Source: Ruegeria sp. PrR005
GTDB lineage: Bacteria > Pseudomonadota > Alphaproteobacteria > Rhodobacterales > Rhodobacteraceae
DNA: 64,000 nt
Direction: 5' to 3'
NCBI RefSeq assembly: GCF_010500245.1
Contig: NZ_JAAGOX010000032.1
Coordinates: forward strand, 186,001 to 250,000
Position 1 is the first letter of the stretch. Each line of letters begins with the position of its first letter. Positions 41,596-48,131 of this stretch are shown one piece after another. The position numbers were made by a program, and so were the translations under genes. The notes under the pieces were generated by a model. It made no database searches and was not told where the DNA came from. It saw only the letters and a program-made list of their open reading frames with translations.

Positions 41596-41624
41596 TTGAC
41601 ACCGGCCCAGAACAAACGCTACCG
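41596..41624 (+). promoter_or_regulatory. Promoter candidate for the B12-controlled gene
   Basis: A consensus -35 TTGACA (41596-41601) is followed 17 bp later by CTACCG (41619-41624), a weak -10. Transcription would begin near 41631, exactly where the riboswitch fold begins. The -10 is poor, so this is a suggestion. Confidence 0.4.
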
Positions 41625-41630
41625 CTGGCG

Positions 41631-41815
41631 TGATGGTTCCCGAGCCGGAAATCGACTCGGGATGAAAAGGGAACACGGTGCGGTCAGCTGGCAACAGAGG
41701 GCCAATACCGGGACTGCCCCCGCAACTGTAGGCGGAGAGCGAAGCCGAAACACCACTGGCCGCAAGGCCGGGAAGGTCGGCAACGCAGCGACCCGCGAGT
41801 CAGGAGACCTGCCAT
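41631..41815 (+). ncRNA. Cobalamin riboswitch aptamer
   Basis: All landmarks of the AdoCbl-type riboswitch are in order: GGTTCCCGAG..CTCGGGA (about 41635-41662), AAAAGGGAACACGGTGCGG (about 41665-41683), ACTGCCCCCGCAACTGTA (about 41713-41730), CACCACTGG (41751-41759), GGCCGCAAGGCC and the terminal B12 box AGTCAGGAGACCTGCC (41798-41813). It binds cobalamin and lowers expression of the gene that starts at 41915. The boundaries are approximate to a few bases. Confidence 0.95.
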
Positions 41816-41860
41816 CGGCATTGTTACTCGAACCCGGGCGGGGTGTCCGGGAGGGACAGA

Positions 41861-41913
41861 AGCGCCTTTCTCGGCCGTCTCTCCATCACCCTTGCTCTTG
41901 CGCGGAGGGCGCT
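41861..41913 (+). promoter_or_regulatory. Shine-Dalgarno sequestering helix (riboswitch expression platform)
   Basis: AGCGCCTTTC (41861-41870) can pair along its full length with GGAGGGCGCT (41904-41913), allowing two G-U pairs. The second strand contains the ribosome-binding GGAGG just before the ATG at 41915. This is what a translational OFF switch needs: when B12 is bound the helix should form and block initiation. No U-rich intrinsic terminator is seen between the aptamer and the gene. Confidence 0.65.
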
Positions 41914-41914
41914 G

Positions 41915-42334
41915 ATGATCTGGACGACCGAGACCCACCAATTTTCTGTTACCCTGTGCCGGCGCACGGGCAAACCCTGTCCGGCCCTGTCGGCCCTGGC
42001 CCAGAATCTGGCCCGAGCGATGCAGAAGGCAGAGCCGGTCACCGGGCAGGATTTCGAAATCGAAGGCGAATGCGCGCTGGCCGCCTGTGGCGAAGGGTGC
42101 CAGTCGCTCTATTCCGCGTCGCACAGCCGTATCCGCATTTTCTGCGGCGTTGGTGAGACGGCCGATTTCGGCTGGTTCGACCGGTTGGCGGATGCGCTGA
42201 TGGAGCCGGGCGAGCAAGTCTTCGTCAACGACAGCAGGCCGCTGCCTTGTGCCATGGCAGAGGCGCGGCGCATCGCGCAAATCCCGGTTGGAAACGGCAC
42301 CGCCACGAGGGAAGAGCGCCGGGCCTTTAACTGA
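41915..42334 (+). CDS. Small Cys-rich protein under B12 riboswitch control (possibly DUF1636/ferredoxin-like)
   Basis: A 139-residue protein I do not recognise with certainty. Cysteines lie at 15, 22, 53, 58 and 62 (CRRTGKPC, then CALAACGEGC), with one more near 121. They resemble the thioredoxin-fold (2Fe-2S) or metal-binding DUF1636 group found beside cobalamin genes. The frame extends upstream but the ATG at 41915 is the one overlapped by the SD-sequestering helix. It ends converging on the phosphatase gene with an 8-bp overlap. It may help in cobalt handling or in a B12-replacing reaction; no biochemical role is shown. Confidence 0.7.
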   Translation: MIWTTETHQFSVTLCRRTGKPCPALSALAQNLARAMQKAEPVTGQDFEIEGECALAACGEGCQSLYSASHSRIRIFCGVGETADFGWFDRLADALMEPGEQVFVNDSRPLPCAMAEARRIAQIPVGNGTATREERRAFN

Positions 42335-42952: not shown

Positions 42953-43939
42953 TCACCGGTTGTCGATGCGCACCTCGATCTGGCTTGGGCTCAGCCCCTG
43001 AACCCCCAGCAGATGCGCGACCGGAATGCCGTTGATCAGAACCAGGGTGCCGGATTCGTCGTCAAGCTCTTGCAGGCTGACCGGAGAGGTGCCGTTGGAT
43101 CCGGGTCGCAGCAGTTCGGCGTCGCCTTGCACGCTCAGCGCATCCTGTCCGGCGATGAAATCCGTGATGGTGATCAGATCGTAACCATCCACGACGCCGC
43201 TATAGGTCTCGATCACCACCTGGTCGGCGCCAGCGCCGGTGGTGACAAGGTCGCCCTCGTCCACGATCAGCGTGTCCTGGCCAGAGCCGCCCTTGACGGT
43301 GTCCGCTGTCCCCAAATCGCGGGCATCGTCCACCGAGACGATAAAGTCGTCGCCCTGCTGGCCATTGATCAGGTTGGCGCCGAAATTGTCCGAGATCGCG
43401 TCGTCACCTGCGCCGCCCGCAACTGTGTCATTGCCCTGTTCCAGATCGTCGCCGCGCACCGGCGCGTCGCCGACGGAAATGGCATCCTCGGGATCGGGAA
43501 AGCTCTGTTCATCATCGTCCCGGTGGATCACGCGCGTGTCGGTGCCATAGACATCGTCGCCCGATCCCAGATTGACGTTATCCGCGCCGGTCCCGGACAG
43601 AACCATGTCGTCGCCATCGCCGGTCTCGATCTTGTTGTCGCCCTGAAGCAGCACCACCACATCGTCGCCCGCGCGGGTGTCCAGGTTCTGTGCGCCAGAG
43701 ACGAAGTCGATATCTCCAAGGATCGCATCGGCCTCGGCCTGGGTTATCTCGCCTTCTGCTACCAGATCGGTGAGGCCTTCGGAGATGCCGGGGCGGAAAC
43801 CCTGGTCAAAGACCAGGTCGTCGTCGTCGGAGGTGATGCGGGGACCGGCCGCGACGGCTGCATCATCGTCATCGCCATCGTTCAGCAACAGCGCGGTCAG
43901 GCCGACGCCGAGCCCAACCAGCGCAAGGATTCCCAGCAT
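42953..43939 (-). CDS. Membrane-anchored RTX-like calcium-binding protein
   Basis: A 328-residue protein. A single N-terminal hydrophobic helix (MLGILALVGLGVGLTALLL) is followed by an extremely acidic stretch (NDGDDDD) and then RTX-like nonapeptide repeats of the form GDGDDMVLSG-GADNVNLGSGDDVY and GGAGDDAISDN, over about residues 85-240. Such beta-rolls fold with calcium. The C terminus (DLITITDFIAGQDALSV and PSQIEVRI) resembles the end region of Roseobacter RTX/VCBS proteins. The anchor suggests it is displayed on the cell side rather than released, unlike typical type I substrates. The role is unknown, perhaps calcium-dependent adhesion. Confidence 0.8.
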   Translation of the reverse strand: MLGILALVGLGVGLTALLLNDGDDDDAAVAAGPRITSDDDDLVFDQGFRPGISEGLTDLVAEGEITQAEADAILGDIDFVSGAQNLDTRAGDDVVVLLQGDNKIETGDGDDMVLSGTGADNVNLGSGDDVYGTDTRVIHRDDDEQSFPDPEDAISVGDAPVRGDDLEQGNDTVAGGAGDDAISDNFGANLINGQQGDDFIVSVDDARDLGTADTVKGGSGQDTLIVDEGDLVTTGAGADQVVIETYSGVVDGYDLITITDFIAGQDALSVQGDAELLRPGSNGTSPVSLQELDDESGTLVLINGIPVAHLLGVQGLSPSQIEVRIDNR

Positions 43940-45905: not shown

Positions 45906-46376
45906 TCAGGCGAGGGCCTTTTGCATGGTGATCGAGGTGGGCCGGTCGTAACCGGGATGTGCGGACTCTCCGGTCTTTACGAATCCCAGCCGGGCAAAGG
46001 CGGCATGGTTTTCCACCAGTTCGACCCGGGTTTCCAGCTCGACAACCGGCAGGCCCAGCGCGCGGGCGCGGACCTCGGCCTGGGTCACCAGCCGGCGCGC
46101 CAGACCCTGGCCGCGCATAGACGCATCAACTGCCAGCTTGCCGAGATAGAGCCGCCCCGGTTTGGCCGTCAGGAAAACCACCGCGAGCGGCGGTGTGCCC
46201 AGCGCCCAGATTTCGTGCCGTGCCGCATGATCCGCGACCGTCTTTTCGGTCAGCCGGTGCATTGACGAGGGCGGGTCGATCCGACCATCCATGAAGGCGA
46301 AGCTGCCCCGGATCAGGGACAGGACCGCCCCGATCTGCGGGCTGTCCGGAGTGATTTGATAGGGGGCGAGGGTCAC
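45906..46376 (-). CDS. GNAT-family N-acetyltransferase
   Basis: A 156-residue acetyltransferase starting with GTG (46376) that overlaps the upstream stop (GTGA). Motif A is LGKLAVDASMRGQGLARRLVTQAEVRARALGLPVVELETR and motif B is HAAFARLGFVKTGESAHPGYDRPTSI; these define the acetyl-CoA site. The acceptor is unknown. It follows the MnmC2-like oxidase gene with translational coupling; the same pairing occurs in other Rhodobacteraceae as far as I recall. It converges on dnaX 16 bp away. Confidence 0.86.
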   Translation of the reverse strand: MTLAPYQITPDSPQIGAVLSLIRGSFAFMDGRIDPPSSMHRLTEKTVADHAARHEIWALGTPPLAVVFLTAKPGRLYLGKLAVDASMRGQGLARRLVTQAEVRARALGLPVVELETRVELVENHAAFARLGFVKTGESAHPGYDRPTSITMQKALA

Positions 46377-47416
46377 AGCGAAGCCTCCGGGCGGAAATCC
46401 TCGGGGATATGGTCGCGCCCCTCCAGCACCAGTTCGGCCATCACCTGGGCCACCTTGGGCGCCATGCCAAAGCCGATCTTGAACCCGCCATTGGCGATGA
46501 ACTGGCCGGGATAGAGCGGATGCGCCCCCAGCATCGGCGCACGCGAGCGCGAGCGCGGGCGCACGTCAGCCCAGCGCTCGATCACCTCGGCCCCGTGCAA
46601 CAGCGGCACCGCCTGCACCGCGCGGTCCAGAACCGCGTCCAGTGCCGCATCCGTGCTGGTCGGGTCGTCATAGTCGCGTTCAGAGGTGGAGCCGATTGCC
46701 AGCGTGCCATCCGCATGGGGCACGATATGCACCGTATCGGCAAAGAGCTGCGGCGCCTGCCGCCCGGCATCGAACCGCAAGAGCGCGGCCTGGCCCTTTA
46801 CCCCGGTGCCCACGGTGCGCCCGTGCGCGCGGTTCAGCTCTTGCAGCCCGGCGATGCCGGTGGCGTGGATCACCTGTCCCCGGTCGGGCGCCTCGGCCAG
46901 CACCTTGACTCCGCGCACCGCCAGCGCGGCGACCAGCGCGGCGCAGGCGCGGCGCGGGTGCATCCGGGCGCTGAGCGTATCCTGCACCACCAGCCCGGTG
47001 GGCGAGGGCGGGCACCAGCCGCCCATCTCGCCAACCGGACAGACCCGCCATTCGGCTCGCCCCTGCCACAGGCTGCGGGCCTTCTCTGCCCGCTCATGCG
47101 CCAGAGCCACGGCGCGGTCATCGGCCAGCGGCTGGATGCGCCCGGTGCGGCCATAGCCGGGGGACACGCCGCCTGCGCCCTCGACCCCGGTCCAGAACCC
47201 TTCCGCCATGATCAGGCTGTCGAACTGGAACGCCTTCTTGGCGTTCCAGTTTTCCGGCACATGCGGGGCCAGCGCGCCAACCAAGCCGCCCGAGGACCCG
47301 GCCCCCGGTCCGAACGGATCGACCACATGCACCCGCGCCCCGCGCGACACGCAGGCCCATGCGATGGAGAGGCCGAATATCCCCGCCCCGCGTATCGTCA
47401 CATCGGCCATTGCCAT
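46373..47416 (-). CDS. FAD-dependent oxidase, MnmC2-like stand-alone domain
   Basis: A 347-residue DAO-family flavoprotein. It has an N-terminal GAGIFGLSIAWACVSRGARVHVVD dinucleotide fold, GSSGGLVGALAPHVPENW, a substrate domain in the middle, and a C-terminal FAD motif (GQFIANGGFKIGFG). LAPHVPENWNAKKAFQFDSL matches the C-terminal oxidase half of bifunctional MnmC, which removes a carboxymethyl group from cmnm5(s2)U34 of tRNA. It is divergent from the mnmD gene (50 bp apart) that encodes the other half. Glycine-oxidase-like activity is an alternative. The start at 47416 has AAAGGGA 12-18 bases upstream. Confidence 0.78.
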   Translation of the reverse strand: MAMADVTIRGAGIFGLSIAWACVSRGARVHVVDPFGPGAGSSGGLVGALAPHVPENWNAKKAFQFDSLIMAEGFWTGVEGAGGVSPGYGRTGRIQPLADDRAVALAHERAEKARSLWQGRAEWRVCPVGEMGGWCPPSPTGLVVQDTLSARMHPRRACAALVAALAVRGVKVLAEAPDRGQVIHATGIAGLQELNRAHGRTVGTGVKGQAALLRFDAGRQAPQLFADTVHIVPHADGTLAIGSTSERDYDDPTSTDAALDAVLDRAVQAVPLLHGAEVIERWADVRPRSRSRAPMLGAHPLYPGQFIANGGFKIGFGMAPKVAQVMAELVLEGRDHIPEDFRPEASL

Positions 47417-47465
47417 CGCCCGTCCCTTTCGCCAGTGTCGCGCCGATTTCGTAGGGGATATTCGC

Positions 47466-48131
47466 ATGGTTGACCAGCAGGCGAAACTGAGCTGGACCGA
47501 GGACCGGGTGCCGGTGTCGGAGCAGTTCGACGACCCCTATTTCTCGCTTCAGAACGGGTTGGAGGAAACGCGGCATGTGTTTCTGGCGGGTAATGACCTG
47601 CCAGCACGGTTCGCGCCGGGCTTTCATATTGCAGAGCTGGGGTTCGGGACCGGCCTCAACATGCTGACCGTCTGGTCGGAATGGGAGCGTGCGGGGCGAG
47701 CCGACCCGTTGCGCTTTACCAGTTTCGAAGCCTTCCCGATGGCGGTCGCTGATCAGGCCCGGGCGCTGGCGGTGTTTCCCGAACTCGCGCCCTGGGCGAC
47801 GCGGTTTCTGGAAGCGTGGAAAGGCGGCACTTGCGATCTGGGTACCCTGCACCTGACGGTTGTTGAAGGCGATGCGCGCCGGACGCTGCCCGGTTGGGAC
47901 GGCGTTGCCGACGCCTGGTTTCTGGACGGGTTTTCCCCGGCCAAGAATCCGGAGCTCTGGGGAAAGGAATTGCTGACCCATGTCGCAAACCACACAGCGC
48001 CGGGGGGTACTGTTGCGACATATACGGCGGCAGGATTCGTTCGGCGCGGATTGGAGGCGGCGGGGTTCACCGTGACCCGCAGCCCAGGATACGGGCGGAA
48101 ACGTCACATGACACAAGGTCTGAAGGCATGA
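47466..48131 (+). CDS. mnmD: tRNA (mnm5s2U34) methyltransferase MnmD (N-terminal half of MnmC)
   Basis: A 221-residue DUF752-type methyltransferase. It has LSWTEDRVPVSEQFDDPYFSLQNGLEETRHVFLAGNDLPARF, the SAM-binding LGFGTGLNMLTVW and DAWFLDGFSPAKNPELWG. These are exactly the signatures of the MnmC methylase domain, which converts nm5(s2)U34 to mnm5(s2)U34 in tRNA. In E. coli this domain is fused to the FAD oxidase; here it is separate. It overlaps the downstream transporter start by 4 bp (ATGA, 48128-48131). Confidence 0.93.
   Translation: MVDQQAKLSWTEDRVPVSEQFDDPYFSLQNGLEETRHVFLAGNDLPARFAPGFHIAELGFGTGLNMLTVWSEWERAGRADPLRFTSFEAFPMAVADQARALAVFPELAPWATRFLEAWKGGTCDLGTLHLTVVEGDARRTLPGWDGVADAWFLDGFSPAKNPELWGKELLTHVANHTAPGGTVATYTAAGFVRRGLEAAGFTVTRSPGYGRKRHMTQGLKA

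Follow-up and report, generated by a model that had tools for sequence, protein, structure and literature searches.

A complete cobalamin riboswitch preceded the gene for a 139-residue, Cys-rich protein (P0001) in Ruegeria sp. PrR005 and, judged by sequence comparison, P0001 and its relatives make up a clade that is well supported and divergent within the DUF1636 superfamily. P0001 could belong to the B12 regulon as a single gene and act on cytosolic corrinoid or its cobalt, a role proposed tentatively and somewhat short of probable.

The riboswitch and its gene

The aptamer (41617..41830, + strand) matched RF00174 over all 189 model positions (model 1-189; 123.3 bits against a gathering threshold of 31.5 bits; E 1.8e-30). 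RF00174 (Cobalamin) was the sole Rfam match at gathering thresholds within the window, which is the whole 64-kb stretch of DNA analysed, from a genome of 5.07 Mb that is 99.94% complete. The aptamer ended 84 nt before the gene, and these 84 nt (expression platform; 41831..41914, +) held, as judged by eye from the leaders of relatives, a hairpin-like stretch with a GCGGGGTG core, a pyrimidine-rich tract and a hairpin, GCGC-GGAGG-GCGC (41900..41912, +), with the Shine-Dalgarno (SD) sequence as its loop. The P0001 reading frame (41915..42334, +) started with ATG at 41915, 6 nt 3' of the GGAGG, and its stop codon ended at 42334.

On the 5' side of the riboswitch a putative zinc metallopeptidase gene (Zn_peptidase) lay divergently on the opposite strand, and on the 3' side of P0001 a dual-specificity-phosphatase-like gene was convergent. 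Beyond the latter came an ORF with RTX repeats and then a gene which, from its sequence, is taken to be dnaX. None of the neighbours adjoining P0001 was a B12 gene, so that its transcript looks monocistronic. The first-pass annotation had described a textbook B12 aptamer ahead of a lone riboswitch-controlled gene without B12 neighbours; both descriptions held, with the claimed aptamer start (41631) falling 14 nt inside the match.

The RTX-repeat ORF (42953-43939, -; 328 aa) matched RTX calcium-binding repeats with 26.3 bits (cut-off 23), had a hydrophobic N-terminus by eye and showed no link to B12. Elsewhere in the window, an FAD-oxidase-like ORF (46373-47467, -) and a methyltransferase-like ORF (47208-48131, +) were divergent and overlapped as listed; from the ORF list they presumably resemble the halves of MnmC as separate genes.

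The P0001 reading frame behaves as a real gene and looks to be under purifying selection, with dN/dS of 0.13-0.40 over ten pairs of five same-genus orthologues (dS 0.41-2.10, some pairs near saturation). P0001 had matches at E <= 0.001 in 46 of 394 genomes of the family, its own genome counted; 17 of the 47 matches in family genomes were left out of the locus survey. With at most 10 candidates scored per genome, a 14-row clade profile had matches in at least 6 genomes when 385 from the class were searched, and three of the matching genomes lay beyond the family. Among the named loci found, that of Ruegeria sp. XHP0148 was closest, its protein and P0001 sharing 83% identity. Two Tritonibacter replicons among the plasmid records carried a P0001 relative (37.4%), and none was found in the phage records searched.

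Superfamily placement, cysteines and predicted fold

P0001 had no useful match to Pfam, NCBIfam or PADLOC models and none to PF07845 (DUF1636) at E <= 1, the curated cut-off being 31.6 bits; the two PF07845 matches in its own genome were other genes. Eight of 14 clade members matched PF07845 at E <= 1 (best 3.7e-5). In profile-profile comparison the clade reached 98.6% against a DUF1636 set of six rows, four of them collected using P0001 itself, and 80.0% (score 35.6, 77 columns; run without a shuffled control) against 30 canonical DUF1636 proteins gathered by PF07845 alone. Homology to DUF1636 was found at the profile level, that is, to the superfamily and not to the family. Six named relatives encoded in ABC-importer operons scored 50.3-108.7 bits, all above the PF07845 cut-off, and bridge the P0001 clade and canonical DUF1636.

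In a 50-row tree, 15 proteins of type A and five more divergent proteins formed one clade on a long branch (support 100/99), and 16 canonical DUF1636 rows (every second canonical protein plus L034) formed a separate one (support 100/100). A sixth divergent protein, L029, fell outside the type-A clade, and L082 was placed at the clade base. No single branch set type A apart from all other rows, since some of the divergent proteins were placed among its members.

P0001 has seven cysteines (15, 22, 53, 58, 62, 77, 112), five of which lie in residues 15-62, the cluster of five that had been noted at first pass; Cys 15, 22, 58 and 62 were invariant across 14 aligned clade members. Six cysteine positions, C1 to C6, were named across the superfamily. 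The canonical proteins (n = 30) all had C1, C2, C4 and C5; all except L181 had C6, and all except L187 had no C3. The DUF1636 protein of the own genome at L035 had C1, C2, C4 and C5 and no C6. All six positions were occupied in 10 of 13 distinct proteins of the ABC-operon type (exceptions L028, L082 and L084; L083 and L085, copies of L025 and L026, were left out of the cysteine counts). Type A had C2, C3, C5 and C6 in 15/15 proteins, C1 in 2/15 and C4 in 0/15. The canonical register CxxC, CxxxC(xxxC) was absent from type A; in the P0001 clade C-x6-C and C-x3-C replace the usual cysteine set. On the simplest reading of these patterns, the ligand set would have changed through a six-cysteine state, in either direction as the tree is unrooted. 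The two Cys pairs of P0001 most likely hold a metal or a [2Fe-2S] cluster.

P0001 is probably a small, cytosolic alpha/beta protein, and no signal peptide was seen by eye. The AlphaFold2 model of P0001 (mean pLDDT 82.4, pTM 0.74) had strands 2-4 and 8-12, helix 23-39, strands 48-55, 62-69 and 72-77, helix 85-96 and strand 113-119; the model of an ABC-operon relative had mean pLDDT 77.4 and pTM 0.74. The predicted order beta-alpha-beta-beta-beta-alpha would be compatible with thioredoxin-like [2Fe-2S] ferredoxins. Foldseek against the PDB gave no match at E <= 0.001 with either model, and the clade profile hit no PDB sequence at E <= 10. With hhalign, the type-A clade reached 0.2% against 14 PF01257 proteins of relatives (no profile match), and canonical DUF1636 gave a weak match to the same proteins (44%, 41 columns around ECLxxC). 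The profile and fold matches being absent for type A, a [2Fe-2S] cluster in P0001 is put forward as a hypothesis.

DUF1636 is a kind of protein already known and experimentally uncharacterised, and the P0001 clade is a distant branch of it. By computation only, PMC4520260 calls it a thioredoxin-like [2Fe-2S] protein, probably of redox homeostasis, and also annotates it as metal-binding; of its function, the two papers found to mention DUF1636, PMC4520260 and PMC12828279, give computed guesses only. The literature searches found nothing on COG5469 and no title or abstract about the P0001 gene.

The first-pass annotation had called P0001 an orphan. That stands as regards Pfam and NCBIfam library models and falls at the profile level, where P0001 belongs to a divergent DUF1636-superfamily clade, so the DUF1636 lead given in the same annotation was correct. 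Its other lead, thioredoxin-like ferredoxins, came out negative in the profile comparison with PF01257 proteins. It had also taken P0001 to have no known function; for DUF1636 the computed assignment above already exists. No characterised homologue was found, nor did the searches find the match to a characterised B12 or cobalt protein that would have counted against a new step in cobalt or cobalamin handling, a step that stays conjectural.

Riboswitches and Shine-Dalgarno hairpins among relatives

RF00174 was found upstream in 28 of an initial set of 29 relatives (L005-L033; exception L021) and in 24/24 scanned loci out of 26 named loci, which lie partly on the same contigs as the first set. 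L084 and L085, outside the riboswitch scan, both carried a GCAACTGT core. Outside the family, riboswitches preceded a clade-like member (L058, genome G540) and L060, and none was found at L061, a canonical-looking DUF1636 gene. P0001 could alternatively be a thiol protein or a cobalt-stress protein with no tie to corrinoid chemistry, its B12 control being leader history only. The conserved Cys pairs would suit such a protein, as would the lack of a characterised relative in the libraries searched (Pfam, NCBIfam, PDB sequences), but the riboswitch in 28/29 relatives over deep divergence, and again before the clade-like member of another family in G540, makes this very improbable.

The own genome had three cobalamin riboswitches: before a run of DUF1636, cobW and cobN genes (L036), before a 56-aa ORF, read here as cbtB, and cbtA (L002, L037), and before P0001. 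Three were also found in each of the same-genus genomes searched (n = 5). Of the DUF1636 genes in the own genome, one lay immediately 5' of cobW-cobN and a second close to cbtA; a 3.3-kb stretch (L035) around the second gave no riboswitch match. The link to cobalt or cobalamin proposed at first pass was supported by the riboswitches of the relatives and by DUF1636 relatives that stand with cobW and cobN or in operons for ABC importers. Genome G091 had two cobalamin riboswitches on one strand (L019/L052), one before a clade member and the other between it and a Peripla_BP_2 binding protein, with an ABC ATPase also on the far side.

The SD hairpin covaried among leaders. In the general form NCGC-GGAGG-GCGN, 42 of 45 distinct leaders retained pair 4 (G-C, U-A, A-U or U-G; L021, L034 and L035 left out); after shuffling of the sides the mean was 25.6 and 42 was reached in 0 of 2000 shuffles, a figure inflated by sequence relatedness. 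Compensated separate changes also occurred at pair 1 (L028), pair 3 (L079) and pair 4 (L084), and pairs 5-7 were no better than chance. The SD was predicted to pair with the upstream pyrimidine-rich tract in 11 of 15 type-A leaders (mean P > 0.5), and the local hairpin was predicted to dominate in 4/15. Two competing SD states would fit translational control. P0001 would be made when cobalamin is scarce; with cobalamin plentiful, the aptamer class and expression platform suggest that the switch would close the SD and turn expression off, probably at translation. Against the translational reading, the account of P. denitrificans cobW and cbtB in a review (PMC8123684) infers control at the level of transcription.

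That the hairpin might be unique to the P0001 gene family was considered and was weakened by L118 (genome G011), where a riboswitch and the same hairpin lay before an unrelated, Cys-poor 100-aa ORF (L118:1081-1380, -) without Pfam match. Immediately after this ORF came a reading frame resembling the BtuF-like L050 protein; the ORF possibly replaces a DUF1636-type gene.

Gene neighbourhoods and the proposed role

Forty distinct loci were compared (18 + 26 named, four shared). The gene lay beside an opposite-strand phosphatase gene and dnaX in 28/40; in 6/40 a DUF1636 gene, an ABC ATPase and a binding protein followed one another in one direction, and 6/40 had other surroundings (L050-L055). The phosphatase gene overlapped the gene end in L038 and L062. 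An intervening ORF was possible in four of the 28 dnaX-type loci (five long-gap loci checked): an unresolved same-strand ORF between gene and phosphatase in L043, L074 and L080, and a long opposite-strand ORF in L041.

The six importer loci had a riboswitch or B12-box core, and their first two genes overlapped as ATGA in 5/5 checked; a scan of four of these loci confirmed FecCD permeases in every one. In L050 a clade member was followed by a Peripla_BP_2 protein, and in G350 by a binding protein. The own genome had no PF01497 (BtuF-type) match, the same control search being positive in 13 of 14 genomes, and no match to the binding protein of one importer. P0001 as a part of BtuFCD in this organism was rejected, since its genome had no PF01497 match. 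P0001 might otherwise be what remains of a lost BtuFCD-type importer, to which it was once an accessory factor. The six named loci, the ATGA overlap and the gene order in G350 argue for this, but P0001 looks under purifying selection and keeps its switch in a genome without a PF01497 match, and 28 of 40 loci adjoin dnaX and not an importer; such a remnant is improbable.

CobN was over the cut-off in 31 of 33 genomes, including all 18 core type-A genomes tested. G153 had no CobN match among the 33 genomes searched, and its clade member L020 (32% identical to P0001; no Pfam model matched) had its own riboswitch; the second of the two G153 riboswitches preceded a TonB receptor, a Peripla_BP_2 protein and FecCD. 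G040 had no CobN over the cut-off, and its clade member, L021, had no riboswitch. Because the own genome had no PF01497 match and G153 none to CobN, neither a BtuF-type importer nor CobN appears to be needed for retention of the clade, which favours work on intracellular corrinoid or cobalt; as regards CobN, the argument depends on a single genome whose clade member has a riboswitch, G153.

These genomes bear on P0001 as a cobalt carrier, its Cys pairs binding Co(II) and passing it from CbtAB to CobW/CobNST, as a low-cobalt back-up of the cobW-adjacent DUF1636 protein. All three riboswitch targets of the own genome would then be cobalt supply, and CobN in 18/18 core type-A genomes and the DUF1636 genes directly before cobW-cobN and near cbtA point the same way. 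Set against this are G153, a genome that has no CobN match and retains a clade member under riboswitch control, and the DUF1636 relatives that open ABC importer operons, and a carrier of this kind is a serious candidate but unlikely.

On the preferred reading, action on cytosolic corrinoid or its cobalt, P0001 would serve the corrinoid or its cobalt once in the cytosol, made or imported alike. For example, it could be an electron donor or hand-off partner in the reduction of Co(III)/Co(II) corrinoid before adenosylation. Since G153 has a riboswitch-bearing relative without a CobN match, the role of P0001 may be limited neither to cobalt insertion nor to import. A narrower version, unlikely as a whole, would make P0001 a stand-alone, B12-repressed redox protein or metal carrier between insertion or import and adenosylation, its cysteines having passed from C1, C2, C4, C5 to C2, C3, C5, C6 through a six-Cys intermediate; the six-cysteine state is still present in ABC-operon relatives. 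CobN in all 18 core type-A genomes, which cobalt chelation also predicts, counts against a corrinoid role. So does CobR, a flavin-dependent corrin reductase already known for the proposed step, the steps of CobR and CobO being those assigned in a review (PMC7242693).

In operons under B12 control, DUF1636 proteins are found alongside the functions of cobalt insertion, cobalt import and corrinoid-type import. In Ruegeria the P0001 gene stands apart from those partners, so that its deletion and its B12 response could be tested with little polar effect. Roseobacters feed B12 to marine algae, and P0001, if it acts on cytosolic corrinoid, would account for a step in their B12 supply.

Compared with known systems, the P0001 locus shares the complete aptamer of RF00174 riboswitches and differs from them in the four-pair SD hairpin before the gene, which is common to most of the superfamily leaders compared. 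Like the thioredoxin-like [2Fe-2S] ferredoxins (PF01257), P0001 has two Cys pairs, the second C-x3-C; unlike them, its first pair is C-x6-C, and neither the clade profile nor the Foldseek searches gave a match to them. With DUF1636 (PF07845) the clade has in common its size, a relationship at the profile level, the cysteines C2 and C5 and in most cases C6, genes often controlled by cobalamin riboswitches, and relatives in B12 gene context. It differs in that P0001 falls below Pfam detection, in having C3 while lacking C4 and mostly C1, and in lying mostly beside dnaX, not next to cobW or an ABC importer.
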